From positions 49,660,501-49,724,500 of the forward strand of contig CM077596.1 of assembly GCA_039654915.1 (NCBI GenBank): 64,000 nt of DNA, read 5' to 3'. Both the position numbers and the translations under genes were made by a program. Origin of the DNA: Aquilaria yunnanensis (taxonomy: Eukaryota > Streptophyta > Magnoliopsida > Malvales > Thymelaeaceae). Every line of letters starts with the position of its first letter. The first letter of the stretch is position 1. This document shows, piece by piece, positions 1 to 63,419 of the stretch. The notes beneath the pieces were generated by a model that saw nothing but the letters and a program-made list of their open reading frames with translations, was not told the origin of the DNA and searched no databases.

Positions 1-210
1 ACATTTTAGGTAGCTAAGACTTTAACGGGTTAGTTTTACTTGTAAATCATTGTCAACTAAATTCATTTAGTAACTGCCAGTAACTTGTCAACCAAGTACC
101 TACCCACATCATAAGCAGCAAGTAATGAGATTTCGAGCAAAGCATATAAATTAATGAGATTGGAGTGAAATTACATAGATAGGCAATCAATTTTTGTGAT
201 TGGGGACTTA
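1..210. repeat. NBS-LRR-flanking repeat, copy 1
   Basis: By eye this segment is closely similar to 36797-37500 and 39522-40200. Shared landmarks are the opening TTTTAGGTAGCTAAG-like string, a TTAACAGGTTAGTTTTACTT-like string and a later block ATTTCGAGCAAAGCATATAA. The 39522 copy lies directly downstream of the intact-looking NBS-LRR gene at 40237-43969, so this is a paralogous copy of that gene's downstream DNA. It is shorter than the other copies because of internal deletion. No coding potential is seen. Confidence 0.7.
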
Positions 211-400
211 CAAGAAGGAGAGATTACAAAATCTTGATGTATTTTAATGTCTAGAATGTGAGAAATCTTGGACCACGCCCTTGACACATTTTTCCAACAT
301 CTTTGCACAGCAAAAGATAAGTGTAGATTTCAGATTGGATAGGTGTAGCATGGATTACTCTAATGGCAGGTTCATCAGATTTCTACAATACCAGATTACA
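211..400 (-). pseudogene. 3'-end relic of a CC-NBS-LRR gene
   Basis: Read on the minus strand, this aligns by eye with 40225-40395, the last codons and stop region of the NBS-LRR gene further right. Both share, on the + strand, the strings GAGAAATCTTGGACCAC / GGGAAATCTTGGACCAC, a GATTTGAGATTGGA-like block and ATGGATTGCTGTGATGGCAG (here ATGGATTACTCTAATGGCAG). No reading frame of useful length remains and nothing of the NB-ARC domain is present. It is best explained as the stub of a deleted paralogue whose downstream flank is the repeat at 1-210. It abuts the kinesin-5 fragment of opposite orientation. Confidence 0.6.
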
Positions 401-936
401 ACAAATAGGTTCTCTTTGGAACACATTGACCTCATCAATCTCTAAGCAAAATGAGCATCTCCTACATAATAAAAATCTATGTCATTCATTTTTGGAAGCG
501 CATGATAAGGTATTAAATAATCTAAGATTCACAAATACTGTTTTGTTCAATCAGCAACTTTAGTCTCAATTTGTATCTAGGCGCTCTTGGATTTGAAAAA
601 GAAATTGGTAGACACTAGGGCTCTGTATGTTTTTCAACTGGAAGCTGTGCAGAAGTTTGTGTCCTTACACAAAGCAAGCTATAATGCTGCCTTCGAGGCG
701 ATCTATCTTTTGGCTTCTTCAAATGCGGAATCTATTAGAGTGGTAGTTATTTATGTTCTTTAATAGCCCTTAGTGTTGGTTTTACTATATTCTGATCACT
801 TGCATGTTCCTCTGAAATATCTTGTTTATATCTTCGGAAGGCGGTGAAACTGCTTCAGTCTTTGATGATCTTCAAATAGCTCTTTCAAATCATCAAGGAG
901 AAATGGCTGTTTTTGCCAGGGAGCTACACTAGGTTA
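366..936 (+). pseudogene. kinesin-5 (BimC class) C-terminal fragment
   Basis: Three pieces read as the C-terminal stalk/tail of plant kinesin-5 motors, the mitotic spindle motors that slide antiparallel microtubules. Piece one (366-560) contains LTSSISKQNEHL and LCHSFLEAHDKVL. Piece two (about 582-745) contains DTRALYVFQLEAVQKFVSLH and LASSNAESI. Piece three (about 837-930) contains SVFDDLQIALSNHQGEMAVF then ARELH and a TAG. A GT...AG gap at about 746-836 looks like a retained intron, so this is a DNA-level copy rather than a retrocopy. The motor domain is absent, the first piece ends in a stop, and frames change between pieces. Assignment rests on recalled Arabidopsis kinesin-5 sequences. 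Confidence 0.72.
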
Positions 937-2810
937 GTAACTGACAATAAACCAAACCTTTGTCTTAACCTTAGCAGAACTTACGGAAGTGGTTGTATAT
1001 CATTAGATGTTTGTGACTTTGTATAACTTGTGTTGAACTTGAAAGAACTGCCTTGACTATGTGCTTGCTGGGATGTGCCTTGATCATGCAAGTTTTATTT
1101 AATTTTTTTTTTCATGTGAATTTAATAGATTGTTCGAATCGAGCTCGAATATGCTTATTGAGCTCGAACTGAGCTCCACCATTTGAGCTAATCAGCCGAG
1201 TGGCTCGAGCCTCTCGAGGCAACGAACGAAGCCTGAGCCTACTACAAGCCGAGCTCTAGCCTCAGCTACGAAGTTTTTTGAGCTTGAGCTCATCCCAGCA
1301 TGAAATTTCGGGTTTGGCCCCGAACCCAACCCAAAACCCGAACAAAACATTTTCTACTTTCCGTCCCTACATTTTTGTGAGCAAGTGAAGAAGGCCAAAG
1401 TCAAACTACAAATCTCCACCTATGTCCTTTAGCCAGTTTGCTTTGTGGCCAGGCCATTTAAGACTAATTATTAACATCTTAGCAAAATTTTAAGATTAAT
1501 TTAGCAAAATTTAAAATTTTAAGACTCGAACAAAAAAATAAGATAAATTTTAGGATTAAAAGTGTCCATTCCCTCCAGAGAAAAATCTGGACTCTCGCCA
1601 TTCACATATGGAACCCATGTATGTGATAGGAGATTACAATCAGAGTCTTAAGAACCAATGATCTGACTGATACATTTCTTATTCTGCAATAATGCTCAAC
1701 CTATGACATAAAATGAGGATCACAAGATATTTAGACTATCTCACCTGCCTACCTATTCAGTCCTACCCCACATAAAACATGAGAGGCCAAAATTGTCTGA
1801 AATTTTCTTCCCCCACAGTCCAGAGATGGAGAGGTGAGTAGTATCCTAAAATATAAATAATGCAACAAGTACAACTTTCTTAAGGATGACAACACTAACA
1901 GTTTCATAGTTCTTGTACTTTAAAGTATTCACAACAATGGGGAACACAGAGGAGTCTCAAACTTGAAACCTAAAGTTAGAAGACACATGACCCAAGGATT
2001 TGAACTATTATGTCAATTTTCGTACTCTGAATTTGATTTGCCTGATGCGCCAAATCATTAACACAATTTACAGCTTTTATTTTATAGAACAAAGGAGGAA
2101 CTTTAAAAGAAGAAACTTATGTTAATCTTAATCCATATTTCTCAATCAAGAATAAGATACGATGGTTATAAATGGTTTCCTTTTCTTTCTTTTTTCTTTT
2201 TTTCTTTTTCCTTTCATGTACCAACACAAAGTTTGCAAGCAAAAACCAAAGAAGTTAGTTTTGATAGCAACTAACCATATATAAAAGTATCTCAAGTTGG
2301 TTCAGGTTGAAGTCTGAAAATCAACAAGTTTGCTGATGTATCAGTCTAGAGTTGATGCTTTCATTATCAAGAAGAACATCTTTCCTCACGAATCTAGAAG
2401 GTTGCAGCAGGTTGAGATCATACATAGAAGCAATGTTTGCATCACCTTTTCTCAAACAAAGCTGTAATTCATGCTTCATACATTACTGAAACCAGTTCTC
2501 CAAGAATGGATTTGAATGTTGCAATTAGTCGATAGCAAACTTCAAACTTAAGACACTTGCATTGACCATCATACATAGAAGCTAACAAGAAACAAATGAA
2601 GTTCAAATGTTGTCACCAGTAAGGTGGTTTGTCAGTCTACACTTCGATGCCACCAGTAAGGTTCTAACCCAAGCTGGTTTTGGTTCTTGAAACAAATGTC
2701 ATGTGCCAATATTCAGCTACTTTAATTTCTTCCTTTATGAAAAATTTGGTAAGTTGCTTTATGAAATCGTATCTTCTTCTTCTTCTTAATTATATTCAAT
2801 TGGTAAGAAT
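937..2810. other. non-coding DNA with a paralogous segment
   Basis: No gene is visible. About 1130-1370 is rich in GAGCTCGA-type words and ends with an AACCCAACCC-type stretch, a composition often seen in short plant DNA transposons, but no ends were found. About 1770-2110 closely resembles 34195-34545 (shared GAGAGGCCAAAATTGTCT), and 2588-2770 resembles 34920-35045 (shared AAGAAACAAATGAAGTTCAA and AAAAATTTGGTAAGTTGCTT). These similarities mark it as part of the duplicated NBS-LRR-flanking unit. Confidence 0.5.
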
Positions 2811-4098
2811 AACACAACAATTTAAAGCATTCATATAAAACCAAGCTAGCTTGAGAAGTACAAGATCATAGGTTTATAAGCAAACCACGCATAGCATTAC
2901 TATTTCAAAGGTCTGAACTACATGTTCATTGCAGGAGCACTTAGGAAACAGTCATACATTTATAGGGTCTCTAGACTTTCCAACTGCACTTTATACACAT
3001 AATCACACAAAACACACAAAACCAGAGAAGCCACTTTAGCTACTATCACTTGACAACAGGTTTCACTGCACCCACAAAACTTAGAAATTCAGTTCAAATA
3101 TCCTGCAGACCGGTGGCGCATTACACAACAAGAAGCATGGTAGTCACCCTACCTTCTCAAAACATAAAACCACAACACTTAACAAAGCTACTACTTTTAC
3201 TCTTTCCCTGAAAAAGTTGGTCAACTAAAGGGTGAGTCATAACAAACTCTGCAAGAGAACTTAAGGCATTAACACAACAGCAAACACTCACTAATTAAAA
3301 TGCAAATAAATCACATTTTCACAATTCACTAGAGCTCTAAAACCCTCACTGCGCAACTAATCAGTCACGGTGCTCTAGAAAACACTAGGTTTTACATGCT
3401 TGCCACACAACACTGACTTGATTCTGATTAGGAATCAAGTTGCACACACACTATTCACAATCTGGAACATTTAGCACCCAAATTGCACTAATTTGCATAT
3501 CTGTCCACTGGCTCCTTGAATATATATCACAAGCTAGTCTTCCGCTAACACTTCAAAATCAAGCACAAACACTAGTATAATGCATAAATATTCCAGAAGT
3601 CCAAAGTTCCCTTGCCTGTTCTTTCTCGTGTTGCAAAACAAACTCTGAAAATCTGATTTCCAGACAAGGCTTCTTCTCAAGCAAGTAAGCCTCTTTCTCA
3701 CTCTAGCATTCCTCAAACTCACTCCTTAATTTCCTTGTAATTTTTTTTTTTGCTTAACCTTTCTCTAAACCTCTTAATTACAGCCTACACAAATAAGAAC
3801 CAGCTTTGCTCTTAAGCTAATTTTGCCGGTAACACGTTAACTTCAGCCCCCTTAACTTCTTGCATGTTACAAATGTAACCTAAGCTTCATATGCAGTACA
3901 AATTAGCCCTCAGTTCCTCTTCCTAAATTTTCGAACAAGTCCCTCAAGATTTTCCTTATTGAAAACCTCTTCCTTTAATTGCAATTAAATCGGACCCCCT
4001 TTTACTAATTCATTCTTTTCCCCCACAATAAAATCTCAATTAACCATTTGAAATTAGTAACAAAAAAAATTAGTCACCAATTTTCTAGGGGTGTAACA
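2811..4098 (-). repeat. probable solo LTR of a gypsy element (one end defined)
   Basis: The + strand ends with GGGGTGTAACA at 4098, so the minus strand opens TGTTACACCCC, a common start of plant Ty3/gypsy LTRs. Leftward of this are long stretches with the base make-up of an LTR leader and a CCTATAAATG-type string near 2970 on the minus strand. No polypurine tract or primer-binding site was found beside it. I could not fix the other end or a target duplication, so the left limit is a guess. Confidence 0.35.
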
Positions 4099-4148
4099 TT
4101 AATAATGTATTAGATGTTAAAGGGCTGTGTCAAGAGTGGGGTGAGTAA

Positions 4149-4400
4149 CACTACTAAAAATACCATGTTTTCCAACGGGCAAATTACCAACGGCCAGCGC
4201 GTTGGTAATTTCCAACTCGTAAGACCGTTGGTAAAAAAAATTGAAATTTACCAACGCGTCAGCGCGTTGGTAATTTACCAATGGTCAAACGCGTTGGTAA
4301 ATCAACCATTTTCTAACAGGCAAATTACCAATGTGTATGCACGTTGGTAATTACCAACACGCGTGCACGTTGGTAATGCGCGTTGGTAATTATAATAATA
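4149..4400. repeat. CACTA 5' subterminal repeat cluster
   Basis: About ten copies of TTACCAACG / CGTTGGTAA-type words in both orientations, several as close inverted pairs that could fold into hairpins, for example around 4240-4280 and 4325-4380. They are followed by an (AAT)n microsatellite at about 4423-4458. A matching cluster lies at the other end. Confidence 0.85.
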
Positions 4401-4420
4401 TATTATTATATTAAAATTTC

Positions 4421-4458
<38 letters not shown>

Positions 4459-4935
4459 TATTTTAGGATATTCAATCTCACCATATATATTAAAACCATA
4501 ATTTTTAATTTCACTCTATAAATATGTTAATATATATATTCATACACAATACAAATTGTATATTATTATATATACAAATTGGTCATTCATCCCTAGCCAC
4601 CACCCGTCCTCCGTCCTCCATCAACCTCCTTTTGCCTACGATTTCTTCTTCGATTCTATCCTTTGTCGCGATTTCATCTGGGATTCCACCTTCCTTCGCA
4701 ATTCCATCTACGATTTGCCGTCGTCCATCATGATTTCGTTTGTGATTCCATCTTCTGTCGTGATTTCATTGGCCTTCCTTCGCATGCGATTTGCCGTCGT
4801 TGATTTGCCGTCAAAATCAACGCCCGATTGAGAGCTCTTTTGCCAGCGATTCCAGTTTGTTCCCTGTCTAAAATAAGCGGCCTGCGACGAATTGGTACCT
4901 TCTCCATGCCCACCATTGCTAGCTTTTCAACTGTT

Positions 4936-5076
4936 GCGAGAATCATGGCAGATATACCTTACAATGGCAACATCAGCATGCCTACCGACGCCATCGCTCC
5001 GCTGCTCCTCCTCTCTCCTTCTCTCCCCAAGAATATGTTCTCTTCTCCTGGCCTCTCCCTCACTCTTCTAATTTAA
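4936..5076 (+). pseudogene. captured N-terminal fragment of an HD-ZIP IV (ANL2-like) gene
   Basis: The translated stretch ARIMADIPYNGN, MPTDAIAPLLLLSPSLPKNM and FSSPGLSLTL matches the N-terminus of ANTHOCYANINLESS2-like class IV homeodomain-leucine zipper transcription factors, which regulate epidermal cell identity. Only the region before the homeodomain is present; homeodomain, zipper and START domain are missing. The match continues to about 5070 and then ends. It is followed by an intron-like, T-rich stretch and the next captured fragment at 5188, so it may act as a donor exon in a chimeric transcript. Confidence 0.72.
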
Positions 5077-5187
5077 TTCACTCCCAACATAGCTCACCTC
5101 TTTAATTACTTACCTTTTTTGGGTTTCTGATCTTTTTTGGGGTTTTTGGTTTAGGGTTGTTGTAGCAGCAGCTGCTTATTGAGAACA

Positions 5188-5319
5188 ACCAAAGTGACGG
5201 CGACAGGACCTGGAGCCGGCAGTAGCCGCTCCAACAACCCGGATGATGAGTTCTCTTCCGATCCTTTTGATATCAGAAACATCAAGAAGGCTTCTGCCGA
5301 GCGCCTCCGCCGCTGGCGA
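5188..5319 (+). pseudogene. captured first-exon fragment of an ACA8/10-type plasma-membrane Ca2+-ATPase
   Basis: The translation contains DDEFSSDPFDI and KKASAERLRRWR, the signature N-terminus of autoinhibited Ca2+-ATPases of the ACA8/9/10 group, just ahead of the calmodulin-binding autoinhibitory helix. The fragment ends at a good donor site (GTAAGTG from 5320), close to where the native protein continues as RQAALVLNA in this family. No transmembrane or P-domain sequence follows. Confidence 0.72.
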
Positions 5320-6333
5320 GTAAGTGCCTCCGACTTTTGCAGTTGATTTATCCGTCTGCTAACTCGCCTTTGTGGATATGTGTGTAGCTTGTAATTTGAG
5401 TGTAGGAACTGTTCTGTTACAGTTTGAATTCAAAGTTATTGCTAGATTGATCAAATTCAATGCCTTTTGTTTTTTAAGTATTCGAACTTTTGAAGCATCT
5501 GTCTCATTTCTTATTTGCTTTGGTATGTAGTCTGGATCTGTTCTTCTAAAGAGATTAGAAAAACAAAGCCAGAAAATGTCTAGCTATCCTTCGGGAAAAA
5601 GAATGTCTAGCTAATGATGGTTTTAGCGCAAAGAGATGAAAAAGAATGCCAAAACTCTCTATGTCGTCCTATTGCTGGTACTCTGGAAATGAGATAACAC
5701 TACTGGAGTTGATTTTGCTTGCTCTACTTTATCCTTATGACTAAATGCATTTAAGCTCAGCCACTGATCCTTCTTCCTAATAAATTAGGATTTGGTGTAT
5801 GTCATTTTGATTCTTTTGTGAAAGATGTTCCAAAACTCTATCAAATGGCAAAGGGAAGTTGGTACTGAATGTTCCATGTTGTTTGTTATTTTTCCAGAAG
5901 CACGTGGGGAAATCTGTTTTGTTCCAATGTTCTTTTGATATTGGAGGGGTAGGATCCTTAGTTTTTGTCTGTGCTAAGGACAAAATAGTTTTTGTTTTAT
6001 TTTTCTTGGCGCTTTTAGCTGCTGTTTATTCACCTATCCTTCTGTACTTGTTTGATAGCAGAATCATATCTATTTGATTTTCTTTAAGATGTTTAAGTTT
6101 GTATGTGTTAACTAGGTTTTGTACTTCCGTTTCCACCTATTGTTGCAATTAAACCGCAAACTTTTCAGTTTCTTATAATCTTAAAAAATAATAGATGTCC
6201 TTTTACATGTGATATCTGCTATGGAACAAGTTTTTTAATATTAGAATACTATTTGTGAGTGCATTCATGTTTTCTTTAGTTGAATAAATTTAATTAGAAG
6301 CTTACTAAGATGCATTTTATTGAGTTCTCTCAG

Positions 6334-6495
6334 CAAGTGGGGCGATCTCTCTTTTGTCTTGGATTGCTTATACGATATGGGTACTCATTGGTTACTACCT
6401 CCGAGAACAATAACATTGATGTCACAAGCAATATTAATTTGTTCAGTAAAAACCTGAGGATGGAGGATTTAAGCATAAAAGTTAGATCTTTGCAG
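6334..6495 (+). pseudogene. captured internal exon of SCC2/NIPBL-type cohesin loader
   Basis: A 162-bp open stretch bounded by acceptor CTCTCAG (to 6333) and donor GTGAGCC (from 6496). It encodes QVGRSLFCLGLLIRYGYSL, then a variable loop, then INLFSKNLRMEDLSIKVRSL. This matches the HEAT-repeat region of plant SCC2, the subunit that loads cohesin on chromosomes. The exon is exactly 54 codons with phase 0 at both ends, so it could be spliced into a transcript without changing frame. No neighbouring SCC2 exon is recognised. Confidence 0.72.
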
Positions 6496-7079
6496 GTGAG
6501 CCTTTTCTTAAAACTGCTAGATTATGTTATCGTAGCTTCAGCTTGTTACATTTGGCAATCAAACTCATAGCTTATTAACTTCCAAACTCTTTGTTTTCCT
6601 TCAGGCGTTTGCATTTTTTCTTTATTGTTTGGTGCTTCTTCAGTGCCATACTACAGTATGTTTTTCACTTTTATTTGTCTATACTTATTTGGTAGGGAAC
6701 CTTGTTAGTAGAGCTGGCACACACCCAAAGTGGGCTAGTTAGAGAATCTGCATGTTTTGTTACATGGGATTTTGTTGTTTAAATAATAACAACCATACTT
6801 AATTTGTAAGCTGCAACAACTGGCTGTTATACTTACTAAAACTGGTAGGATAAAATTCCAAGACTACTCTCCTTTAGCTTCCGTCTTTACCAGAAATTGT
6901 TATCTTCACCCTTTTGAATACTGGACTTAATATATTTGGGGTTCCATTATCTTGAAACATGATCTAACAAATAAAATGCTCTGATTAAATGATACTCTTG
7001 GATATGACTAGAAGTAATGCGAAAATTACATCAAACTATATTTTGGCCTAGTTTATGATTAATTAAGTGAAGAAGAATT

Positions 7080-7250
7080 GGAACCTGATGATTTATACTT
7101 TTCTGCTAGAATTTCTGCTGCTGTAGCTGCTGCTGCTTATCTAAATATATTGATTTACTATCCGTGGTATGATCTGTCCCGAGTGCCTGATGTACTTGAA
7201 GGAGATTTGGCTCTTGTCCTCTTTGTGATATCTTATTATTGCTTACAGAA
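7080..7250 (+). other. exon-like open stretch in the CACTA element, unassigned
   Basis: An open reading stretch with protein-like composition (EPDDLYFSARISAAVAAAAY, YYPWYDLSRVPDVLEGDLAL, VLFVIS). It lies between the SCC2 and Ufm1-protease fragments on the same strand, so it is probably another captured exon. I do not recognise the source gene. Borders are approximate. Confidence 0.4.
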
Positions 7251-7301
7251 AGTGTGTGATTCGTCATTCTGCAAACAATTTGAGATTTTCTTTGTTTGCA
7301 G

Positions 7302-8404
7302 CTACACCCATACCACTTCTGTTTGCCTAGGCTTCTTCATCCAATTACTGTTGTCTATGAACTTAATTATGGGGAGACAGAGATGAAGCAAGGTATTCGC
7401 AGTTAAAGCCATTATATTTTATTAATAAAAAGCTATCTATCAGTGGCACTATGAAAGTTCTTATTTGACTGCTTTCAGCCAGAACGTTCCTTTCTTCCCT
7501 TCAGTCAATCCCGTTCTTATCTGAATTTGAAAGTGGCCACTGTCCTTACCAAACTAAGTTTATTAGAATCCTTTTCGCTTGAAGTTACTATTGTCTTCTA
7601 TGACCTTAGGTAAACACTATTTTAGTATTGGTATACTTTTGTGTCAATTTAGTCGTATCTTGCTATCTCTCCAGCCATGTCTTTTCTAAACTCAAAAGCG
7701 ACAGCTAATTGTCAACTAAATTGAGCTGCTTTTATTCTGCAAAATGAATTTTCATTGTCAGATTATGTAACCTTGGTTAACAAATAGTAAGGCATTGGTG
7801 ATGGCTTACTATACAGATAAATACTTGCCTATGAGAAATATGCTCAATTTTAGCAATATTGATAGAATGAAGCTTCTGAAATGTAATGAGTGTACGAATT
7901 GGATTGCATAGTTTGATAGTTGATATGGTATTATATCAGGATTACTAACTAAAAGTTTGTACATTTTCAGTTGAAGTAAGGAAATCCCTGCATTTAAGGC
8001 TTGGATTACCGTTTGATCGTCCCATTTTGGAATTGCCAACGCCATTGATCTGTCAACAGTTTCAGCCAGTTCAAAGAAAAGCTATAATCAGAAAGGTAAG
8101 TTCATCTACTACAGAAAGTTTGAGATTGCTAATGGTTTGCTTCTCTGTTTTATCCTTTCCTTGGTGTTGTTAGGTTCTGCTATGCTTAAAGATGTACATA
8201 TGGGAATTCCTAGCGGTGGTGGTGAGTGCCTGTGTGTGTTTGACTATTTTGATTTTCCTTTATGCTTGCCATGTGGTATTTAATTTTTGTTTATTGACTT
8301 TTTTTTTCTAATTTCCTTTTCAGTCTCTGGTGGCATTTCTTCTCTGGTTCAAGGTTCTTATGAGTACTACCATTATCTTCAAAATGGCTATGATGACTCA
8401 GTAA
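7302..8404 (+). pseudogene. captured exons of a Ufm1-specific protease (UfSP) gene
   Basis: Four exon-like blocks with splice signals. 7302-7392 encodes [15 protein letters not shown]. 7971-8095 encodes VEVRKSLHLRLGLPFDRP; the 7392/7971 junction keeps frame (phase 1). 8174-8221 encodes MLKDVHMGIPSGG. 8324-8404 encodes [20 protein letters not shown] then GYDDS. Plant UfSPs, cysteine proteases that mature the ubiquitin-like modifier UFM1, carry the string [20 protein letters not shown] immediately before the catalytic Cys. This fragment stops just before that Cys, so it cannot encode an active protease. The join between blocks two and three is out of frame as I read it. Confidence 0.75.
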
Positions 8405-8544
8405 TGGATTTTCTTCCTACTTTTCATCTCTTATTGCATCGTTCAACAAGTTGTTTGAAGTGACCATTTTTTGTATATTATCAAAACAAACAAATTATGT
8501 TCAATATTGTTGAGCGAACATTATAAAGAAAAAATGGTTCATGA

Positions 8545-8748
8545 CCGTTGGTAATTACCAACGTGAATTTTACCAACGTCTACACGTTGGAATTTACCAA
8601 CGTGTTATTAATTGCGCGTTGGTGAAAAATTTTCCAACGTATCGAATACCAACTGCCATTTACCAACGGCCCCGCGTTGGTAAATTCAATTTACCAACTG
8701 CTATACGTTGGTAAATGGCAGTTGGTAAAGTCCTATATTTTAGTAGTG
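8545..8748. repeat. CACTA 3' subterminal repeat cluster
   Basis: Mirror image of the 5' cluster: repeated CGTTGGTAA / TTACCAACG words in both orientations, ending at the terminal TTTTAGTAGTG. The two clusters together show that both ends belong to one element. Confidence 0.85.
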
Positions 8749-8751
8749 TAA

Positions 8752-10436
8752 GAAAGCTGAGCATTCCGAGAGAGCAAAGCAGCTGACTGAAAATAGAGAA
8801 AGACAATTTGAGTTCAGTCTGAAGGTCATTGTAGTGATTATGAAAGAAAACCAATCAACTGAAAAAGGGAATGAATTGAATAGGCAGAGAAGTACATCAG
8901 TAGGTTCAGAAAAAAAGTTTGACTCGTATGTTGACTTTCAACTGGAAGCATCAACTGAGTCTGCCAAGCAAGTTTTATTACAAATCTCAAGTCTATATAA
9001 ATGCTCAAACTGAGATTTCTAGTCAAGAATCAAAATTTAATAACAATACTTTTATACACCTGATTTTGTCTGAGAATCTGTTCTAGGCCTTACAAATTTC
9101 TGGTGCATAATTGTGGTGCCTCAAGGCATGATAAGTAGAATTTCTAATATGTGAACTGAAGATTAAATTCTGTTCAGTAAGAGTGCAAGTGGAATTTAGA
9201 GGCTATATTGCCTGAGTATTGTTAACTTATGTCTGAAATTGAAGACAGCAGTTACTCACCAGGAATTGGTGTAGAAGACCATCATTCTTAAAACTGGCAT
9301 CGAAGGTTCGTAACGTAACTTATTGGGGCACAGCTAAGGTGCATTCAAGGCATTGCACTGTAAAAGTAATTAGATTATTCAAGTCACTGAACAGAAAAGT
9401 TAGTGAGCTACAAGGGTCATTTGATAATGTGCACCAGTAGCATAGGCACTGGGGTAAGAGTAGTCTGCAAGCTTACTAATCTGATGAGTCTGGTTTTACC
9501 TATCTGCAAAGTTACTGATCTGATGAACCTGGTATTCTATCTTTGCAAGATTACTGATTCGCATGGTGAAAAGATGAACAAGGATCAATAAAAACAGTAA
9601 AGACTGAAGATTGATAGGCTGAACAGAAAGAAATTAGTCAAGCTACGGGAAATTCACAATAGTTGGTCCAGGATAATAGTACGAACTCCAATCTGCTGAA
9701 CTTCAATCTGATTGTGTCTGTTGAACTGGAGTTGCATCTGCTAGATTTTGAAACTGTCAAACCAGCAACTGCATTGAAATTCTGTATAGACAGTCTCAGG
9801 GTTGCAAGTTTGACTGATGCTTTGACTTTCAGCTAAGCTTATGCGTTTGCTCTGAAATTTTGCATATAAGTCTGGAGTGGTATTCAAAACTTTCTTGCAT
9901 TCTAAAACTTGGTCCTGAAACGTGGCATTGCTGTATTGTTATACAAGTCCCTCAGGTGGATTTCTGGTTACAGAATCTTGTTTTATCTGTCATTGCTGCA
10001 GCAAAAGATAAAGTGTTAGGCAATGTACTTAAGACCAGGGGGTGAGTGGTTCTGCAACAGCCATCAGGAATGAGTCAAAACTCATAGGCTTTGAGAACCA
10101 TGAATCTGAATTGAACTGTAACAACAAGGACCAGGAGCAGAATTTGAAGCAAGATTGTTAGTAGCATAAACAAGGATGTTTCAGCAAGATAGAAGGGAAG
10201 CAGAATAAAGAAGGTAAAAGCCCACAAAAAGAAGGACATTATAGTAAGCATGATGTAGAGGAAAAACAGAAAGAATGTAAAGGAAGCTAAGCTCTAAATG
10301 ATCCAGTTGAAGAAGCTACTGCAAACAAACTTTGAGTATAATTTGGAAGATGGAAGTAAGGTACTAGAAGATTGATTAACTGAACTACTTTGGTGGAAAG
10401 CAAATTTGGATGACCAAATTGGAAGGAGGGGGAATT
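8752..10436 (+). other. non-coding interior of a degenerate gypsy-like element
   Basis: No reading frame resembling gag or pol is visible. The right edge reads GACCAAATTGGAAGGAGGGG, a polypurine tract, followed directly by TGTCACAATC at 10437. This is the same arrangement, GACCAAATT then a purine tract then TGTCAAGAC, as at the 3' end of the gypsy element at 31950-31977. I take it as the 3' internal part of a decayed or non-autonomous gypsy-type element. Its 5' LTR is not identified. Confidence 0.4.
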
Positions 10437-10592
10437 GTCACAATCATCCCTTATTAAGGTCAACCTGCTTTGCTAGTTGGATTGATATATCTGAACTGTT
10501 CTTTCTAGTTTAGGCCTACTAATCTATTTTTGTTATCCGTCTAATTTAATAGCTTATGCTATTGAACTGCTTGCTAGTATATTAGTTGTTCC

Positions 10593-10774
10593 TGTTAAAC
10601 AATATCAGAGGAAGAAATAAAGGGCTTGATCAATACAAGACCCTCACACAACCTTTATATAATAGATGAGAGAAGAATACAAGGAAAGAAAATCCCTAGC
10701 AATAAAGAAAGTAAATCCCTAGGAATAAAGAGAGATTATTATGTTTCCCAAACAATAAATAACATTCCATAACA
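10593..10774 (-). repeat. copia 3' LTR (complete)
   Basis: The + strand runs from TGTTAAACAATATC to CATTCCATAACA. Sequence AATCCCTAGGAATAAAG near its inner part recurs in the truncated 5' copy at 14707-14787, proving it is an LTR. Confidence 0.85.
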
Positions 10775-10906
10775 CTCCCTCTCAAGCTAGAGCATACATA
10801 CCATAAGCTCCAAGCTTCTCATATATAGAATTTACTTTAGACCCTCCTAAAGCTTTAGTGAATAAGTCAGCAAGTTGATCTTCTAATTTGACATACGGGG
10901 TCTTGA

Positions 10907-11271
10907 TCAAGTCTTCTTGAGTTTCTCACGAACAAAATAGCAGTCAACTTTGATATGTTTAGTTTTCTCATGGAAGATGGGATTCAATACAATATGGATG
11001 GCTGCTTGATTATCACACATTAATTCCATAGGAGATGAGTGTGCGAAACTAACCTCCATGAGAAGATGCCTTAACCAAACTAGTTCACCTGTAGTATACG
11101 CCATTGCCCTGTACTCAGATTTAACACTTGACCTTGCAACAATACTTTGTTTCTTGCTTTTCCATGACACCAAGTTTCCTCCCATGAATACATAGTAACC
11201 TGAAGTAGACCGTCGATCATATGAACCTGCCCAATCAGCATCTGTGTATCCTTGAACCTAAGTATGACCAT
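10907..11271 (-). pseudogene. copia RNase H
   Basis: Readable motifs on the minus strand are ADW-like sequence near 11250 (in a shifted frame), then MGGNLVSWKSKKQSIVARSS and SEYRAMAYTTGELVWLRHLL. These are followed by CDNQAAIHIVLNPIFHEKTK and HIKVDCYFVREKL. This is the C-terminal RNase H of a copia pol. A frameshift around 11180 splits it. Confidence 0.8.
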
Positions 11272-11289
11272 GATTTTAGTAAAGGAGAC

Positions 11290-12902
11290 CTCGTCCCAGT
11301 GTTCCTTTAAGATATCTAAAAATTCTAACTACTACATCCTAGTGGCTAGTACGAGGAGAGTCCATGAACTAACTTACTGCACTCACAGCAAATGAAATAT
11401 TTGGACGAGTAACAGTTAGATAATTTAATTTGCCAACAAGTCTTTGATACGTAGTAAGATCCTCCAAGCATTCCCCTTTATCCATGTTAGAGATTATAAT
11501 TGATTGATTAGATGATTTTCAGGGATTATAATTGATTAGGAGTGATTATGGGGCAATTAGTTGCAATTGATATTTACCTTGTATAAGTTATTTCATTCAA
11601 TATAAAGGGATTAGGGAGCTGCGTACAGATGCATGCTCTCAGAAAAATCTCTTCTCCTCTTCTTCCCTCTTACAACCTTTCTTTCTAACAATCTACATCA
11701 AGCTTGACATTTGGCTCCATAGGACTGTCAACCGGTTTGGCTCCCAACAAGCCAGCTTCCTCAAAAGGTCAAGAACATATTTTTTATGAGACAAACATAT
11801 TCCCATTTTGGATTGTGCTACCTCAATCCCTAACAAATATCTCAATGGACCAAGGTCTTTTATTTAAAACTTGGTTTGCAGAAAATCCTTCAATGGTAGA
11901 ATACCAACTGCACCATCATCAGTGATAACAATATCATCAACATAGACGATCAAGAGGATTTTACCAGCTTCAGAGTAGTGATAAAAAAAAAGTGTGATCC
12001 ACACATCGCTGCAAACCAAATTCCATAATGATTGAATTGAACCGACTAAACCATGCTCGTGGCGATTGTTTCAGACCATACAACGACTTGTTTAGGTGAT
12101 ATAAATGATCAGGCTCCTCTTAAGCAATAAACCCCGGTGGTTGCTCCATGTAGATAATTTCCTCACTATCTCTATGAAGAAAGGCATTCTTAATGTCCAA
12201 CTGATGTAAGGGCCACGCATATGTAGCAGCCAATGTAATGAGAACACGAACAGATGTTATTTTGGCTAATGGAAAAAAAGTCTTCAAGTAGTCCATGCCA
12301 TATACCTAAGTATATCTTTTTACTACCGGACGGGCTTTTAATCAATCAACTGTACCATCAGGATGAACCTTTACAGCGGATACCCAGCAACAACCTACAA
12401 CAGTTTGACCACATAGAAGAAGAACCCAGTCCCATGTGTTATTAGCCTACAAAGCTGACATTTCTTCTTCTATGGCTTGCTTCCATCCAGGATGAGAAAT
12501 GGCTTCTGAAACAGATTTAGGCAAGGGTATATAGGACAAGATGGATACAAAGGCAAAATATGATGGTGATAGAGAATCAAAAGAAACAAAGTTGGAGATA
12601 GGGTGAAAAGTACAAGACCTCTTTCCTTTGCGAAGTGCAATTGGAAGATCAAAATCATCACCTTTTGGATTTGAAAATGAAGAAGATGGTGGTGATGGGC
12701 ATGAATCTCCTTTCAGTACTTCAACTCGAGGATGCCGAGTATAAACCTGCAAGTCAAGACGAGACAGACACTTTAAAGAAGGGGGATCAATATCAAGAAT
12801 ATGCTCTAAAAGTGTAGGACTAGTGTTTGATGCATTGTTCTCAAAAGCTGTTTGAGTTGGGACAAAAGGTAAAGGAAGACAGTCATCGGCATTAGTAGGC
12901 AC
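11290..12902 (-). pseudogene. copia reverse transcriptase and linker, disrupted
   Basis: The linker and RT start are open at 12447-12902, ending ISHPGWKQAIEEEMSAL, the standard entry to copia RT. The rest is broken by stops and shifts, but the active-site motif YVDDIVIT is readable on the minus strand at about 11915-11950. A 206-bp solo LTR (11485-11690) interrupts the 3' part. Confidence 0.75.
11485..11690 (+). mobile_element. small solo LTR inside the copia RT gene
   Basis: Starts TGTTAGAGATTATAATTG and ends CTTTCTAACA, with short inverted termini TGTTAG/CTAACA. The flanks are ATCCA (11480-11484) and ATCTA (11691-11695), a 5-bp target duplication with one change. A TATAAAGG box lies at about 11603 and CT-rich leader-like sequence follows, so transcription would be on the + strand. 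The host copia RT sequence continues on both sides. Confidence 0.75.
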
Positions 12903-16721: not shown

Positions 16722-18420
16722 TATCAAGACACTATTTCAGTGCTTGGCCTATGCCAAAATGTGAAGGAAAATTCATTACAATAATAAGAGACTTGAGTAA
16801 AAATGATGAAAGTGCTAAGTGGGCATTGGTAATATCATGGGTAGGCTTGCCGAGCCTATCAGGTCCAAATTGTACATTTGAAGTGACCCATGCACTTATG
16901 GCAGAAAACAAAGTTTAAGGGCTCACTTGAACATTCTTTCGGGTGCTATTAGTGATGCTAATACTTGTGGAATGAAACATTAAGCCATGCAATTTTGTTT
17001 AAGCCGTGATTAAGCCCATTTTAACGTACATGTGGCATTGGCCAGTTAATGCATGCTACCACTTAAGCCGAAAATCATTAGTTTCGGTCAAAACTTCCTC
17101 TTTGCAAGTCAAGCCGTGTTCTTCATGTTCTTGGGTCGAAGGTTTCGGGTTCTTACCGAATTGGTGGTGATTGAAGCTTGAATTGAAGAATCAAGCTTGG
17201 AAGTGGTGTTCTTGCCCTTAGGCGACCTTGCACCTAAGTTGACAAGCTCGGTCTTGAAGGTTCAAGTGCTAATCGAGAGCTCAAGCTAGGGATTTGGTAA
17301 GGTTTCACGAATTCTAATTGATTTTGGTAATGATTCTATGTTCAAGTAGATTAATGGCATCTAAGTGATAGTATTTTTTAGCTATATGATCTTAGATTGC
17401 TAAATGGGGCATATATGGAACCTTTGGGTTTATGTGAATTCTTGGCTAGCTTGTCAATAATGGCAAATACTAAAGTTCAAGGTAAGTAGGCCAACTTATC
17501 TTTGAACTTGGAGCTCTAGTGGAATGGACTTGAATTGATAGTGCTGGAGTACAACTATGTGTGTGTACTTGCTAGTAGTTTCGGCCAATAAGGGCATTGT
17601 GTTGTGGTGTGTGTGTTGTATGCTTGTTTGCTTGGATGTGCTTGCTAACCCTTTGTAGATGTTGTTATCATGTATATATGTGTCTTGGATATCATATGTA
17701 TATGCCATTATGCTTGTGTTTTTGGTGTTTTCTTGTCTTACTTGAAGGTTAAGTAAGGCTTTGTGGAGGTTAAGCTTTCGGGCTTAACTAAATTAGCTCA
17801 TAGAGATGTAGTGAACCTTATTGAGTTTATAAACTCATGCCCCTTATTGTGTTTCAGGAAAAGGCTTAGAGCTTGAGTGATTGTGTGTATTGTTTGTGTG
17901 CTAAGTTAGTTCACTTTTTGTCAAGATATGTGCCAAAACTGAAATCTTGGCTTATGAGTACAATGTGCAAGTCTTGTGATTATTGCTCAAACTTATGTGT
18001 TTGAGTTTTTTAGGCTTTGTATAGAGTTGTGGGATGAGTCTAGGAGCTATGAATGTGTGTTCATGGGCATTAGTATTGTGGTTTGCTTTCATGACCATGA
18101 ATTTGGTTATAGGACTTGTCCTTCAATCCTTAATCTTGTATTGTACCTTCAAAGTACTTCTTGGATATTATAGGTAATTGGGCATGTAAAGCATAACTTG
18201 TGCTTATTTTGGGTTTGTAAGTACTCTTGGTATGTTGCCAAGTAGCTAGTACTTTGTGGAGGCCATTTTTGTGTATGTATATGCCTCAGTGAACTATGAA
18301 ACTTGTGTATATTTTGAAGGTTTGGAATGCCAAGTTATGCTATGAATGTTTGATTATATGTCTTGGAATTGTCCTTTTTGAGTTAAACCTCTTGTGTTCT
18401 TTGTCTAGCCAAATGTACAT
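16722..18420 (+). repeat. 5' LTR of the gypsy element, 3'-truncated
   Basis: Aligns along its whole length with 31977-33690 of the right LTR, with scattered substitutions and small indels, and then breaks off at about 18420 after AAATGTACATG. The last 360 or so bases of the LTR, the primer-binding site and gag are missing, so one deletion joined the LTR directly to protease sequence. Confidence 0.9.
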
Positions 18421-19648
18421 GTATTTGGTTAAAACCGTTGGCAATGAAGTTTTATTTACATATCACATGGTTGAAAATTGTGTGATTCAAATTGACAAGC
18501 TGAAACGACTTAATAGTGCTAAACACTTACGATTATGATGTAATATTGGGTATGAACTGGCTAAGTGAGAATAAAGTAATTATAGATTGTCATGCTAGAC
18601 AATTATTGATGCCTAGTTGTGAACCTTATGAACTGGATAAATCACTAGAGTTAGCTTTGGACTACCAAATTAAAGTGTTAAAATTAATAACTTTAGAAGA
18701 TGAAAATGAATGCCTGGAACTTAATGACCAGGGAGTGGCTAGTGAACTTAGGCAGATACCTACAGCTCAAGATTTTCCAGGAGTATTCCCTACAGACCTA
18801 CCTGGATTACCACCCAAGAGGGAGGTGGAATTTGAAATCAAACTAGTACCAGGAGCAGCACCAGTGTCTACTGCTCTATATAGGATGGCACTACTTGAAA
18901 TGGTAGAATTGAGAAAGTAACTAGATGAGTTGCTTGAGAAAGGGTTCATCAGACCCAGTGTGTCTCCTTGGGGAGCACCTATTTTGTTTGTAAAAAAGAA
19001 TGTTAGAACCCTTAGGCTCTGTATAGATAATAGAAAGCTCAATGCCTTGACCATTAAGAACAAGTACCCCCTCCCCAGAATTGAAGATCTATTTGAGCAA
19101 TTAAAAGGAGCTAAGGTGTTCTCTAAAATAGATCTAAGGTCTAGTTATTTCTAGCTAAGGGTTAAGGAGGAAGACATACCTAAGACTGTTTTCAAGACTA
19201 TGTATGGACACTTTGAATATACAGTAATGCCATTTGGGCTTACAAATGCACCTGCATTTTTCATGGACTTAATGCAGAGGGTGTTTAGAGCACACCTAGA
19301 CCACTTTGTGGTAGTTTTTATTGATGATATTTTGGTGTACTCAAAAAATGAGGAAACTCATAAAGAACACCTAAAGATAGTGTTTGGCTTGCTTCAAGAA
19401 CACAAGTTTTATGGAAAGTTGAGCAAATGTAAGTTTTGGACTCAAGAAATTGGATTTCTGGGTCATGTAATAAATGATCAAGGATTGGCGGTGGATCCTA
19501 AAAAGGTAAGGTCAATCTTGGATTGGAAGCAACCCCAGAATGTGAGAGAAGTTAGAAGTTTCCTGGGGTTAGCTAGCTATTACAGAAGATTTGTGCCAAA
19601 ATTCTTTATTATAGCAGCACCTATGACCTAGTTAACCAGAAAGAACCA
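18421..19648 (+). pseudogene. gypsy protease remnant and reverse transcriptase
   Basis: A decayed protease end (YDYDVILGMNWLSENKVIID, where plant gypsy elements have DVILGMDWL) is followed by RT with [67 protein letters not shown], the active site [10 protein letters not shown] and the thumb motif [18 protein letters not shown]. In-frame stops at 18918, 19152 and 19629 each sit where Gln is expected (LRKQLDELL, SSYFQLRV, APMTQLTRK), as if CAA/CAG became TAA/TAG. The frame is interrupted at 19648 by the Tat element and resumes at 29926 with [10 protein letters not shown]. Confidence 0.88.
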
Positions 19649-31976: not shown

Positions 31977-34052
31977 TGTCAAGACACTGTTTCAGTGCTT
32001 GGCCTATGCCAAAATGTGAAGGAAAATGCATTAAAACAATGCGGGACTTGAGTAAAAATGATGAAAGTGCTAAGTGGGCATTGGTAATATCATGGGTCGG
32101 CTTGCCGAGCCTATCGGGTCCAAATTGTACATTTAAAGTGGCTTATGCACTAATGGCGGAAAACAAAGTTTAAGGGCTAACTTGAACATTCTTTCGGGTG
32201 CTATTAGTGATGCTAATACTTGTGGAAAGAAACATTAAGCCATGCAGTTTTGTTTAAGCCGTGAAGGGCATTAGGCCCATTTTAACGTACATGTGGCATT
32301 GGCCGGTTAATGCATGCTAACGCTTAAGCCGGAAATCATTAGTTTTGGTCAAAACTTCCTCTTTGCAAGTCAAACTGTGTTCTTCATGTTCTTGGGTCAA
32401 AGGTTTCAGGTTCTTGCCAAATTAGTGGTGATTGAAGCTTGAATTAAAGAATCAAGCTTGGAAGTGGTGTTCTTGGCCTCAGGTGACCTTGCACTTGAGT
32501 TGACGAGCTCGATCTTGAAGGTTCAAGTGCTAATCGAGAGCTCAAGCTAGGGATTTGGTAAGGTTTCACAAATTCTAATTGATTTTGGTAATGATTCCAT
32601 GTTCAAGTAGATTAATGGCTTCTAAGTGATAGTATTTTTAGCTATATGATCTTAGATTGCTAGATGGGGCATATATAGAACCTTCAGGTTTATGTGAATT
32701 CTTGGCTAGCTAGTCAATAATGGCAAGTACTAAAGTTCAAGGTAAGTAGGTCAACTTATCTTTGAACTTGGAGCTCTAGTAGAATGGACTTGAATTGACA
32801 AAGCTTGGAGTGCAACTATGTGTGTGTACTTGCTAGTGGTTTTGGCCGAAAAGGGCATTGTGTTGTGGTGTGTGTGTGTTGTGTGCTTGTTTGCTTGGAT
32901 GTGCTTGCTAACCCTTTGTAGATGTTGTTATCATGTATATATATGTCTTCGATATCATGTGTATATGCCATTATGTTTGTGTTTTTGGTGTTTTCTTGTC
33001 TTTCTTGCAGGTTAAGTAAGGCTTCATGGAGGTTAAGCTTTCGGGCTTAACTAAATTAGCTCATTGAGTTGTAATGAACCTTACTGAGTTTATAAACTCA
33101 TGCCCCTTATTGTATATGTTTCAGGAAAAGGCTTAGAGCTTGAGTGATTGTGTGTATTGCTTGTGTCCTAAGTTAGTGCACTTTTTGTCAAGGTATGTGC
33201 CAAAACTGAAAGCTTGGCTTATGAGTACAATGTGCAAGTCTTATGGTTATTGCTCAAACTTATGTGTTTGAGTCTTGAAGGTTTTGTATAGAGTTGTGGG
33301 ACGAGTCTAGGAGCTATAGATGTGTGTTCATAGGCATTAATATGGTGGTTTACTTTCATGACCATGAATTTGGTTATAGGACTTGTCCTTCAATCCTTAA
33401 TCTTGTATTGTACCTTCAAAGTACTTCTCGGATATTATAGGTAATTGGGCATGTAAAGCATAACTTGTGCTTATTTTGGGTTTGTAAGTACTCTTGGTAT
33501 GTTGCCAAGTAGCTAGTACTTTGTGGAGGCCATTTTTGTGTATGTATATGCCTCGATGAACTATGGAACTTGTGTATATTTTGAAGGTTTGGAATGCCAA
33601 GTTATGCTATGAATGTTTGATTATATGTCTTGGAATTGTCCTTTTTGAGTTAAACCTCTTGTGTTTTTTGTCTGGCCGAATGTACATGGACATGAAAAGT
33701 GTGATTTCAAAACTTGAGATGATATGGGCTTCTTGGTTGCCATGCATGGGATATCACACTTGATGAGCACACACCTTAGACACTTAAAGATAAAAAGTGC
33801 TCATGCCTTGCCTTGTGTTGCAAGTTACTTATGGGCCTTGCCTTGTGCTGCAAATAAAGTATATAAAGTTAACCAGTAAGCCTCCTGGGGCACCTCCCAG
33901 GCCTTAACCTTAAGAAAATAAGACTTAAGCTATAATATTGAAAGTTGGCCGAAAACCTAAATCTACTCATAACGCTTTTAAGTGCAAGTGTTTAATAACT
34001 TTCATGGTAGCTTGGTGAGGGACACTGAGAGTGCACAGGCTTGGGTGTGACA
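31977..34052 (+). repeat. 3' LTR of the gypsy element (complete, 2076 bp)
   Basis: Preceded by the polypurine tract AAGGAGGGAGG (31963-31973). Ends TGACA at 34052 next to target duplication GTAAC. A possible TATA string, AAGTATATAAAG, lies near 33858. Confidence 0.92.
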
Positions 34053-40236: not shown

Positions 40237-43200
40237 CTAAATAATGATGCCTGGAATGTGGGAAATCTTGGACCACTCGGTGCTTCCTTTGACGCATATT
40301 CGCGATAACTTTTTGCAATTGATGCATATAGATTTGAGATTGGAGAGACGTAACATGGATTGCTGTGATGGCAGCTTACTCAGCCTTCTACAATAATAAA
40401 TCTCAAGCTTTTGGAGAGAGGAGAGGTTTCCCAGCCACTCAGGCAAATCTTCAATTGCATCAAAGTGCCTTATCTCCAAGACTTCAAGAGTAGTTAAGTG
40501 TTGTATTTGTGGTGGTAGAGTGCTGCATCCAAATTCATTGAGAGTCAATTTTTTGAGGGAGGAAGGCATGCTTTGGTGGATAGAATCGAAGTATTGAGGG
40601 ATTTCCTTGCCAGACTTCCCGAATCCACCCAACCATAAATGCGTCAGTGATGGCATCGCCTCTAGAGGTGACAAATTCCTCAACTTCTTGCAGCCCCAAA
40701 TTTGTAGCTTCTCTAATGAAGAAAGGTTGCCTAGCCACTGCGGCAAAGTTTCCAATTCATCAAACCAATCAAGCTCCAATTCTTGAAGAGTAGTGAGGTG
40801 CTGCATTTGATGTGGCAGAGACTTTATATTAGCTCCTCCAAAAAGCTTCAACTGGATGAGTGACCCATGCAAGTGATGGATGGAAGTGAAGCATGGAGGC
40901 AATTCTCTTACCTCTTCTGAGAAGTTGAAATACAAGAATAATCTTTTTAAATGGGTGAGGCAACCAAAGCTTGTCTCTGGAATCTTGTCCCATACAATAC
41001 TATTGCATCCACAAATCTTTAACTCAACTAAATTCTTCAAACTTGCGAGCCATTCAAGTTCTGAAGACATTTTAGGACAGCCATTTAACTCCAACCTCTG
41101 TAGGGAAGTGCAGTGTTGCAGTCCACTTGGAGCACACCTCAAATCCTTACAATGATAAAGCTCCAAATGTGTGAGAGAGCAGAGCTCATGAAAGCTCGGG
41201 AGCAATTCCAACTTGTCGCAACCAGATATCTCTAACTCTCTCAAGCACTTGCTGGAAAACATACCATCCCCTATGTGACTGACACCTAAATACAAACACG
41301 TAAGCGTTTTAAGACATGGGAGACCATTTGTCAATTGGATGCGTCTTAAGTTGTGACAGCGACGAAGACTTAACTTCTCAAGGGAAGGAAACATGTCCCT
41401 TCTGGTTGTGTCAAACCACTCTTCCAAGCTTATCATATCCTGTAATTCAAATTCTTTTAGAGCTGGAAAATTTCCACTCCCATAAAAATCAGCATCAATC
41501 AGTTTTACTCCACTCAGTCCATCGATAAAAAGATAGGTTAAGTTGGGTAGGTGCCCGAGGCTTGGAAGCTTCACACACTTGGAGCAAGAGTCCAATGTCA
41601 ACCTAATCAAATTTGGTAGTGAAGATTGGGAGTTATTGATACTCGTGCTGGGAAGCCAGGATGGGAAATAGCCACCTCCGTAGTTTCTAATCCACAAACC
41701 CTTCAAATTTGGGTGAGGTTGTAGCTCCTCCAACACATCGTCATCTTGCCCCACATCTACTCTTTTTTTGCTCCATTTAAATACCAACTCCCATATTCCC
41801 TTCTTCTCTTGCAGTTTTGCCGTCCTTGCATCCTCCATATGTCTCACCCGCTCAAGCTTACGTATTTCTAATTTTCCTTGAAGATGACTTAAGCTCCCTA
41901 GCTCTTCGATTCCAAGCCCTCTTTCTACACCCACAAAAAATAATGGCAATGTTTGCAAACTTGTTAATCTTCCAATGTTGATTGGCATGAGCCGCTCCTT
42001 GTCAATATAAAGATGTGACAATTCGACCAAGTTTTCCATCTGCAGTGGAAGTTCCTTTAAATTTTCACACCATGTGACTCTTAAAGTTTGCAGGTTCAAG
42101 AGTTCAGTGAAGGAGCTCGGTAGACTTTCAATTTGAGTCCCTGAAATGTCCAAGTATTTCAAACGCTTCAATTTTTTTATTGACTTTGGCAATTTATCTG
42201 CACTTGTAGCTTTGTGTAGTTTCAAAATTCTCAACCTTCTGCACTCCTTCGGGAAATGGCAAAAAACATCGAAGCTGGAAAATAAAGAGCGCAGATTTGG
42301 AGCATCAACTTGTGTTAGTCTACCGGCTAGGTCACTTTCTTTTCCTATAATATTCAGATGACGTACAAGAGAGACATCTCTAGAAGAATTTGTATCTGAC
42401 GTTAGGATTGCAGCCTCCGAACGAGATCTTGCGAGACTGTGTACCAAATCATGCATCTTGCATGCCTCGATGTTGCCATAAAAATCCCTTTCCACATCTT
42501 GGAACAATGAATTTGATACTAAGTCTTTGAAATACTTGTCACCCGTATCCCATGCTGTATGACAATGATCTGCTGGAGATGGATGAAGAAAGCCTGCAGC
42601 CATCCAAAGCTGAATCAATTCCTCTCTGTATAGAAGAGAATCTTCAGGAAAGAAGGAGCAGTATGCAAAACATAGCTTCAAATGTGGTGAACCCAAGCGG
42701 TCATAGCTCAATTGTAGTATACGGAGAATATCTTCGTTACTTTCCAAAGAGTTCCATAAATTACTATTTTGAATTGATGACCATGCTCGTTCTGTCCTAT
42801 CCTTGCGCAGGGTTCCTCCAATGACACTTGCAACCAAGGCCACGCCTTTGCATTTTTTCGCAATATTTCTTCCAAATTGTTTCTAAATTGTGAGGGATTT
42901 CAGATGATTTGCCGAATGATTTTGCTCTGATTATAGACCAACACTGATCATTCTTCAATATGGGAACTTCATATAGAAATTCCGGGAGAGAACCCATAGT
43001 TGATGCCACCTCCATATCTCGAGTCGTTGCCAGAATGATAGTCTTGTTTTTCTGATTTATTCCTTCCAAACACTTCCTGAAATCATCCCATTTTTCAGCG
43101 TCCTTGTTCCACACATCATCAAGCACCAGAAGATATGGCTTCTCTTCTAACTTCTCTTTGAGCTTTATAACTAAGCTCTGCGGACTTAAGCTTCCAAAGA

Positions 43201-43969
43201 AAGTAATAGTTTCACTGGTAACACACTCCAGTATTTTACCCAGGATCATCTTAACATCAAAAGTCTCAGAAACACACACCCATAACTGCTGTCTCTTGTC
43301 GAACAGATTGTTCACGCGCTTATCCTCCAAAACCATTTTGGCCAGAGTCGTCTTTCCAAGGCCGGCCATCCCCACAATGGACACAACGCCGAGGGGATGT
43401 GAGGTGTTTGATGAGCTAATCAACATATTTATAACTTCAGAAACAGCAACCTCTCTTGGGACAACTAGTTCCGGATCACCGAGAAAAGCATGAGTCTCCT
43501 GGAGCCCTGATAAGGATGCAGGAGCGGAAACCAGTTGTCCTCTGTTTTGGAGGCCCAATCCGGTGCCCTTGCGGCAGATCTTGTCCAGCGACTTGGTTAC
43601 ACTCTTAACCTTATAAGCCATCCTCAAGCGGAAAACGGTAGGATTGTGGGAAGAGAAGCCGTTAATGAGCTTTCCTCCCCATCGATTGTTGACTCGTAGC
43701 TCAATCCGCTTGGCTTCATAAGCGAGCTCAGCTAACACATCTTGGGCCCGGGAAGCGCCATCAGCAAGCCACTTGAGCCACACCTTAACAGGTGGGTCGG
43801 TTGATCTCGTCTCAGCATCGTCCAGAAAAGCTTCGATCATATCCAGGAAGCGTTGGAGTTCCTTGAGCTTCTTGTCAAAAGTCCACCCCAGTTTTACCAG
43901 CTCGAACACAGCCTTCTTGGCCTCCGATATCATCACCCTTATAGCAGCATGGAGTACAACTTCCGCCAT
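40237..43969 (-). CDS. CC-NBS-LRR disease-resistance-type gene with a single-base frameshift
   Basis: Intracellular immune receptor family; NB-ARC binds ATP/ADP and the LRR region usually gives recognition. Start [17 protein letters not shown] is typical for the RGA-like CC group. Coiled coil about 1-150 (with [15 protein letters not shown]), P-loop [10 protein letters not shown] about 199-208, kinase-2 YLLVLDDVW about 279-287, [13 protein letters not shown] about 311-318. After the shift come a GLPL-like motif (CKGVALVAS), RNBS-D ([12 protein letters not shown]) and [11 protein letters not shown] (MHD) near 505. LRRs fill the remaining about 680 residues ([18 protein letters not shown] and many more). 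One extra base in the AAA run at 42874-42876 (+ strand) breaks the frame at about residue 365; without it the reading is continuous for about 1,240 codons. No intron is needed. It may be a young pseudogene or hold a sequencing error. Confidence 0.9.
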
Positions 43970-62165: not shown

Positions 62166-62493
62166 ATTGTGGAGAAAAACTCTTTCCTCCTTTTTAAGTA
62201 CCTCAGACAATCGAAGTTGAAATGTTCTATTCGGAAGTGTGAATTTTCATAATAGGTGAGTGCAGAAATTTAAACTTCGATAAGATGAGTGAATCTTGAT
62301 GATGACAATAACACTGACAAATTATGTAAAGGGAATGGATGTTTGGAATCAATATCCAAGGTTCATCTAATATTTTCTTCAGTAAATATAGATTCCCTTC
62401 TGAGATATGTCATCCAAATAAGGTCAAAGCTTAACTACCCCAAAATGTTATGCCTAGTAGACCTAATAGGATGCGTCTCAAGAGTAATAAAAA
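62166..62493. other. spacer between the array and the LOG-like frame
   Basis: No gene, LTR end or transposon terminus recognised. If a border of the retroelement exists between array and LOG-like frame, it must be here. Confidence 0.5.
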
Positions 62494-63335: not shown

Positions 63336-63419
63336 TCCTATCCTTACCCTTGTGAGAAAAGATGATATATTTATAGAGATGAAGAGATAAGGCAATAATT
63401 TTATTTTCAAGAATGGATA

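Follow-up and report, generated by a model that had tools for sequence, protein, structure and literature searches.

Analysis of a 64-kb window of Aquilaria yunnanensis DNA (contig CM077596.1, positions 49,660,501 to 49,724,500; coordinates below count from its first base) revealed a complete CACTA-type transposon at 4149-8748 that is, with high probability, a non-autonomous Pack-CACTA element holding host DNA, introns included, from at least four unrelated genes. The recognisable pieces, all on the plus strand, resemble an ANL2-like HD-ZIP IV gene, an ACA-type Ca2+-ATPase gene, SCC2 and UfSP2 (Ufm1-specific protease 2); their positions are collected in Table 1.

Termini and captured gene fragments

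Terminal inverted repeats (TIRs), a target-site duplication (TSD) and subterminal repeats or hairpins are established hallmarks of CACTA superfamily ends. All of these were found here as in CACTA (En/Spm) elements: the TIRs start with CACTA, a 3-bp TSD flanks them, and subterminal repeats occur in both orientations. The subterminal 7-mer ACCAACG/CGTTGGT is strikingly confined, since 17 of its 18 occurrences in the window fall in 4149-4400 (nine) and 8530-8748 (eight), which together make up 0.7% of the window, with one further occurrence elsewhere. Folded as single strands, both ends are far more stable than expected from their composition (z −10.6 for 4149-4400 and z −12.8 for 8530-8748), with none of 200 shuffled sequences as stable in either case. 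Self-comparison revealed no second copy of the element within the window.

Scanning the element against Pfam in six frames recovered no transposase family at E ≤ 1, and CaATP_NAI (E 0.027) was the sole match at this threshold. The scan is insensitive to exon pieces, as it missed UfSP2_N even though the joined UfSP2 exons match this family, and a small transposase remnant split by introns could therefore escape detection. The original prediction, made from the letters alone, had described CACTA ends, subterminal repeats and a TAA duplication without a transposase; the coordinates of the 11-bp TIRs and the TSD proved exact, and the missing transposase agrees with the scan. An element without a detected transposase that has captured coding DNA from host genes, a point on which the ACA piece is weaker, falls within the Pack-CACTA group.

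We regard the SCC2 assignment as very secure. A search of 5.8 billion proteins with 6334-6495 returned 194 candidates, 186 of them at E ≤ 0.1, and the best match among the 120 listed, a Citrus SCC2, is 76% identical across all 54 codons (E 2.3e-15). When the 120 listed proteins were compared with the window by tblastn, 120 matches started at the SCC2 piece; for 106 distinct proteins the match begins within 6307-6343, at E values of 2.8e-20 to 1.3e-13 (the next listed start is 6298). Five decoys, namely the reversed window, the window without the element and three shuffles of two-base blocks, gave best E values of only 0.022-0.087. A PDB search with the same piece gave one match, at E 0.85, which was taken as chance.

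The limits of the 54-codon exon were set by the AG and GT in the element and by the end of homology, rather than from the parent gene. Its SCC2 relatives (119 of the 120 listed were used) continue with ALGFVL, and the element has an AG followed by AFAFFL at 6605. This AG is the best of 36 such sites in 6496-7301, and 5 of 4058 AG sites on the plus strand of the window score as high. Judged from these six codons, the captured SCC2 piece probably spans an intron, an exon and the start of the next exon. Among the 120 listed proteins, 23 columns are conserved at 95% or more; the SCC2 piece departs at 2 of these, and eight of the 120 relatives also do so at two or more.

UfSP2 is represented by four consecutive, collinear exon pieces with introns between them, thus indicating capture from genomic DNA and not from cDNA. 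When joined, they match Pfam UfSP2_N (E 7.3e-7) and the solved structures 3oqc (E 9.8e-6), 5ejj and 5xda (E 5.1e-4) and, at E 0.03, 2z84 (UfSP1), and on these grounds the assignment is considered secure. A change of frame near 8030 raises the score for UfSP2_N from 29.7 to 34.4 bits, for 3oqc from 28.8 to 33.1 bits and for 5ejj/5xda from 23.3 to 30.8 bits (for the structures, the query also lost one glycine at a later join), which indicates that exon b carries a frameshift.

For the HD-ZIP IV piece, an ANL2-like stretch was used only as bait and drew 453 real proteins at E ≤ 10 among 844 candidates, 120 of which were listed. All 120 of these HD-ZIP IV proteins match the unaltered window by tblastn, starting at 4921-4945 (E 1.7e-8 to 0.004; 115 at E ≤ 1e-3 and 76 at E ≤ 1e-5), compared with best E values of 0.01-0.37 on the five decoys; the best alignment among those listed has 63% identity over 52 positions. 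We consider this a good assignment, resting on direct comparison with 120 real proteins. With the same 95% cut-off, 18 columns count as conserved among those listed; the piece departs at 4 of these, where no relative departs at more than three, and its median identity to the 120 proteins, a set picked by the bait, is below that of every one of them. Such low identity is compatible with decay, with another HD-ZIP IV paralogue as the parent or with the baited selection, and the column departures of neither the SCC2 nor the ANL2 piece prove decay.

A further exon-like stretch at 7066-7250 looks protein-like. It matches no Pfam family and overlaps none of the listed SCC2 or ANL2 proteins at E ≤ 10; PDB matches at E 0.15 and 9 were taken as chance. 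Four sources are counted and not five.

Several observations weigh against a Pack-CACTA element with four sources. The ACA assignment is the weakest of the four: the match to CaATP_NAI, the N-terminal autoinhibitory domain, covers 21 residues at E 8.1e-4, its 19.3 bits fall short of the gathering score of 25, and the signal weakens to E 0.027 when all six frames are scanned. The piece matches no solved structure in the PDB at E ≤ 10, and its 5′ border is an AG picked by us; genes of the ACA8/ACA10 type are presumably similar at this piece. A database-wide protein search with the combined ANL2 and ACA stretch (4924-5319) scored none of 401 candidates at E ≤ 10, a failure that is not fully explained and calls for caution on the ANL2 call. 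Exon borders were guided by homology and then set at AG/GT, so the intact splice sites are partly there by construction. Finally, no exact copy of the subterminal 7-mer lies in the interior of the element, which leaves capture by fusion of CACTA copies without a visible relic.

The original prediction had named these four host families, all on one strand, and had proposed protein matching as its check. This matching found SCC2 and UfSP2 (the strongest cases) and ANL2 (a good one), with ACA remaining below threshold. The prediction is thereby confirmed in what it observed and, for the most part, in how it was interpreted. Its GT/AG signals are present as six acceptors and five donors at the chosen borders. 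The SCC2 exon predicted with exactly 54 codons and phase 0 on both sides was confirmed in length, AG/GT and phase, with the qualification that its limits are those seen within the element and that the next exon probably follows at 6605.

Table 1. Positions of the element, its ends and the pieces recognised within it.
Feature	Position	Strand	Remarks
Complete CACTA-type element	4149-8748		4.6 kb
Left TSD, TAA	4146..4148	.	read from sequence
Left TIR, CACTACTAAAA	4149..4159	+	11 bp, perfect
Left subterminal repeats, ACCAACG/CGTTGGT	4168..4390	.	direct and inverted; strong hairpin
TATAAATA, possible TATA box	4517..4524	+	putative role in a left-end promoter; weak
ANL2-like HD-ZIP IV fragment	4936..5067	+	N-terminal region, protein residues ~16-59
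ACA-type Ca2+-ATPase N terminus, exon-like	5155..5319	+	recognisable at ~5257-5319; donor GTAAGT follows
SCC2 exon piece	6334..6495	+	54 codons, in phase 0 at either border; preceded by AG and followed by GT
Probable start of next SCC2 exon	6605..6622	+	after 109-bp intron; AFAFFL against ALGFVL, six codons
Exon-like open stretch, no family named	7066..7250	+	
UfSP2 exon a	7302..7392	+	
UfSP2 exon b	7971..8095	+	frameshift near 8030
UfSP2 exon c	8174..8221	+	
UfSP2 exon d	8324..8402	+	3′ end uncertain
Right subterminal repeats	8541..8728	.	strong hairpin
Right TIR	8738..8748	-	11-bp CACTACTAAAA, inverted
Right TSD, TAA	8749..8751	.	read from sequence

Splicing and coding potential

The pieces could be spliced as they stand, and selection for splice sites does not follow from this. 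Six of them, joined on paper from 5155 at AG/GT, give 223 open codons; the donor sites are good, and TATAAATA at 4517 could serve a left-end promoter. These features would suit a working chimeric gene, in which an ACA-SCC2-UfSP2 RNA is transcribed from the left end, spliced and then translated, but we find such a gene hardly credible. The first ATG of the chain is codon 98, and the octamer TATAAATA occurs 17 times in the window when both strands are counted. Nine ATGs lie between 4545, the assumed start of transcription, and 5319: the frames opened by seven of them (4730-5035) run for 13-56 codons and end before 5319, and those of the other two (5243 and 5246) stay open through 5319 but differ from the frame of the ACA piece. 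Past ~8030, moreover, the chain runs in the wrong UfSP2 frame. Owing to this frameshift, the lack of an early ATG and the short upstream frames, a long chimeric protein is unlikely to be made from the element.

The element could give a chimeric or a silencing RNA, much as the original prediction had proposed a chimeric transcript or small RNAs against the parent genes. We think it very unlikely that left-end transcription and splicing of the collinear, phase-compatible pieces yield a stable chimeric RNA, perhaps with a short SCC2-UfSP2 peptide from an internal ATG, or an RNA that regulates the parent genes, which would make the element a new gene in the making. It also seems unlikely that small RNAs from the element act in trans on the ANL2, ACA, SCC2 and UfSP2 parents. 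If transcribed, its strong hairpins (z −10.6 and −12.8) could enter silencing pathways, but they lie in the transposon ends, outside the gene pieces, and small RNAs derived from them would therefore not match the parents.

Assembly of the interior and the surrounding window

A mechanism is proposed where CACTA transposase supplied from elsewhere binds the ends, so that the element moves, or once moved, in trans. As homology shows, its interior consists of genomic DNA with introns, drawn from at least four unrelated host genes. The likely route, extrapolated from published Pack-CACTA work, is that neighbouring CACTA copies fused repeatedly, each time enclosing the intervening DNA. The gene pieces are passengers that are starting to decay, as the UfSP2 frame is lost, although AG/GT still stands at the recognised borders. 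If transcribed, the element could give a spliced chimeric RNA, or could produce silencing RNA or be targeted by it.

The lack of any inner relic of earlier CACTA ends, in the form of the exact 7-mer, could instead reflect a pre-existing pseudogene cluster, or assembly by another type of element, which CACTA ends bracketed later. Against this, the ends closely bound the gene pieces and carry matching TAA on both sides, and Pfam recognised no host gene beside the element: at E ≤ 0.1 the left flank (1-4148) gave no family and the right flank (8752-12503) gave a copia reverse transcriptase alone, in a scan that could miss small exons. We give this explanation scarcely any weight. Origin of all pieces from a single locus is likewise judged unlikely because in Arabidopsis the four families are spread over different chromosomes or chromosome arms. 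A Pack-CACTA transposon is the reading that we retain.

The copia sequence in the right flank lies on the minus strand, with RVT_2 matched in two frames (E 1.2e-36 and 4.1e-12), thus indicating that a copia element with a frameshift lies close to the CACTA insertion. Within the transposon, imperfect repeats (for example CGATTTGCCGTCGT, present twice) occupy 4590-4860, in the stretch that separates the left end from the ANL2 piece.

The remainder of the window holds other repeats and frames. Direct repeats of 1.7 kb at 16724-18421 and 31979-33688 are 93.6% identical and are probably the long terminal repeats of one retrotransposon or of nested ones; the frames between them look gypsy-like by eye. 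Two overlapping long frames on the minus strand at 40237-43969 look by eye as if a CC-NBS-LRR resistance gene were divided between them. Self-comparison revealed a large tandem array at 59657-62169, whose units are 70-92% identical to each other, and tandem repeats at 63426-63983. The latter lie directly upstream of a minus-strand frame (62826-63422) that by eye looks like the beginning of a LOG gene (cytokinin-activating, lysine-decarboxylase-like).

Comparison with known capture elements

En/Spm-type elements of the Tpn1 family of Japanese morning glory have been reported to capture pieces of host genes. That gene capture by CACTA elements is known, as the original prediction had stated, is also borne out by a close precedent described in 2007, soybean Tgm-Express1, a CACTA element of 5.7 kb in which pieces from five unrelated host genes are spliced in many combinations with F3H exons (PMC1947982). 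Tgm-Express1 resembles the present element in being a non-autonomous CACTA of similar size that holds exonic and intronic pieces of unrelated host genes. It differs in the genes that it holds and in its setting, the intron of the expressed F3H1 gene, whereas Pfam recognised no host gene beside the element described here. Its pieces act as cassette exons and its chimeric RNAs have been demonstrated (PMC1947982).

Pack-CACTA elements have been described in Arabidopsis, rice and maize, and in maize they have the most distinct loci among Pack-TYPE elements; fusion of neighbouring copies is the proposed route of capture (PMC8903248; PMC13317346). Related elements are also said to be sometimes mis-annotated as genes (PMC8903248). 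An element such as the present one, with pieces from several sources, would be a useful test of repeated capture if copies with fewer pieces turn up.

The element is of a kind already known, a gene-shuffling Pack-CACTA, and leaves the known picture unchanged. What it adds is a clear dicot-like case of CACTA exon shuffling, in which 4.6 kb draw on four unrelated sources and AG/GT is retained at the exon borders. With the Pack-CACTAs described in Arabidopsis, rice and maize it shares CACTA ends with a TSD, the lack of a transposase and captured coding DNA, and it differs from them in its host and in its subterminal repeat (PMC8903248; PMC13317346).

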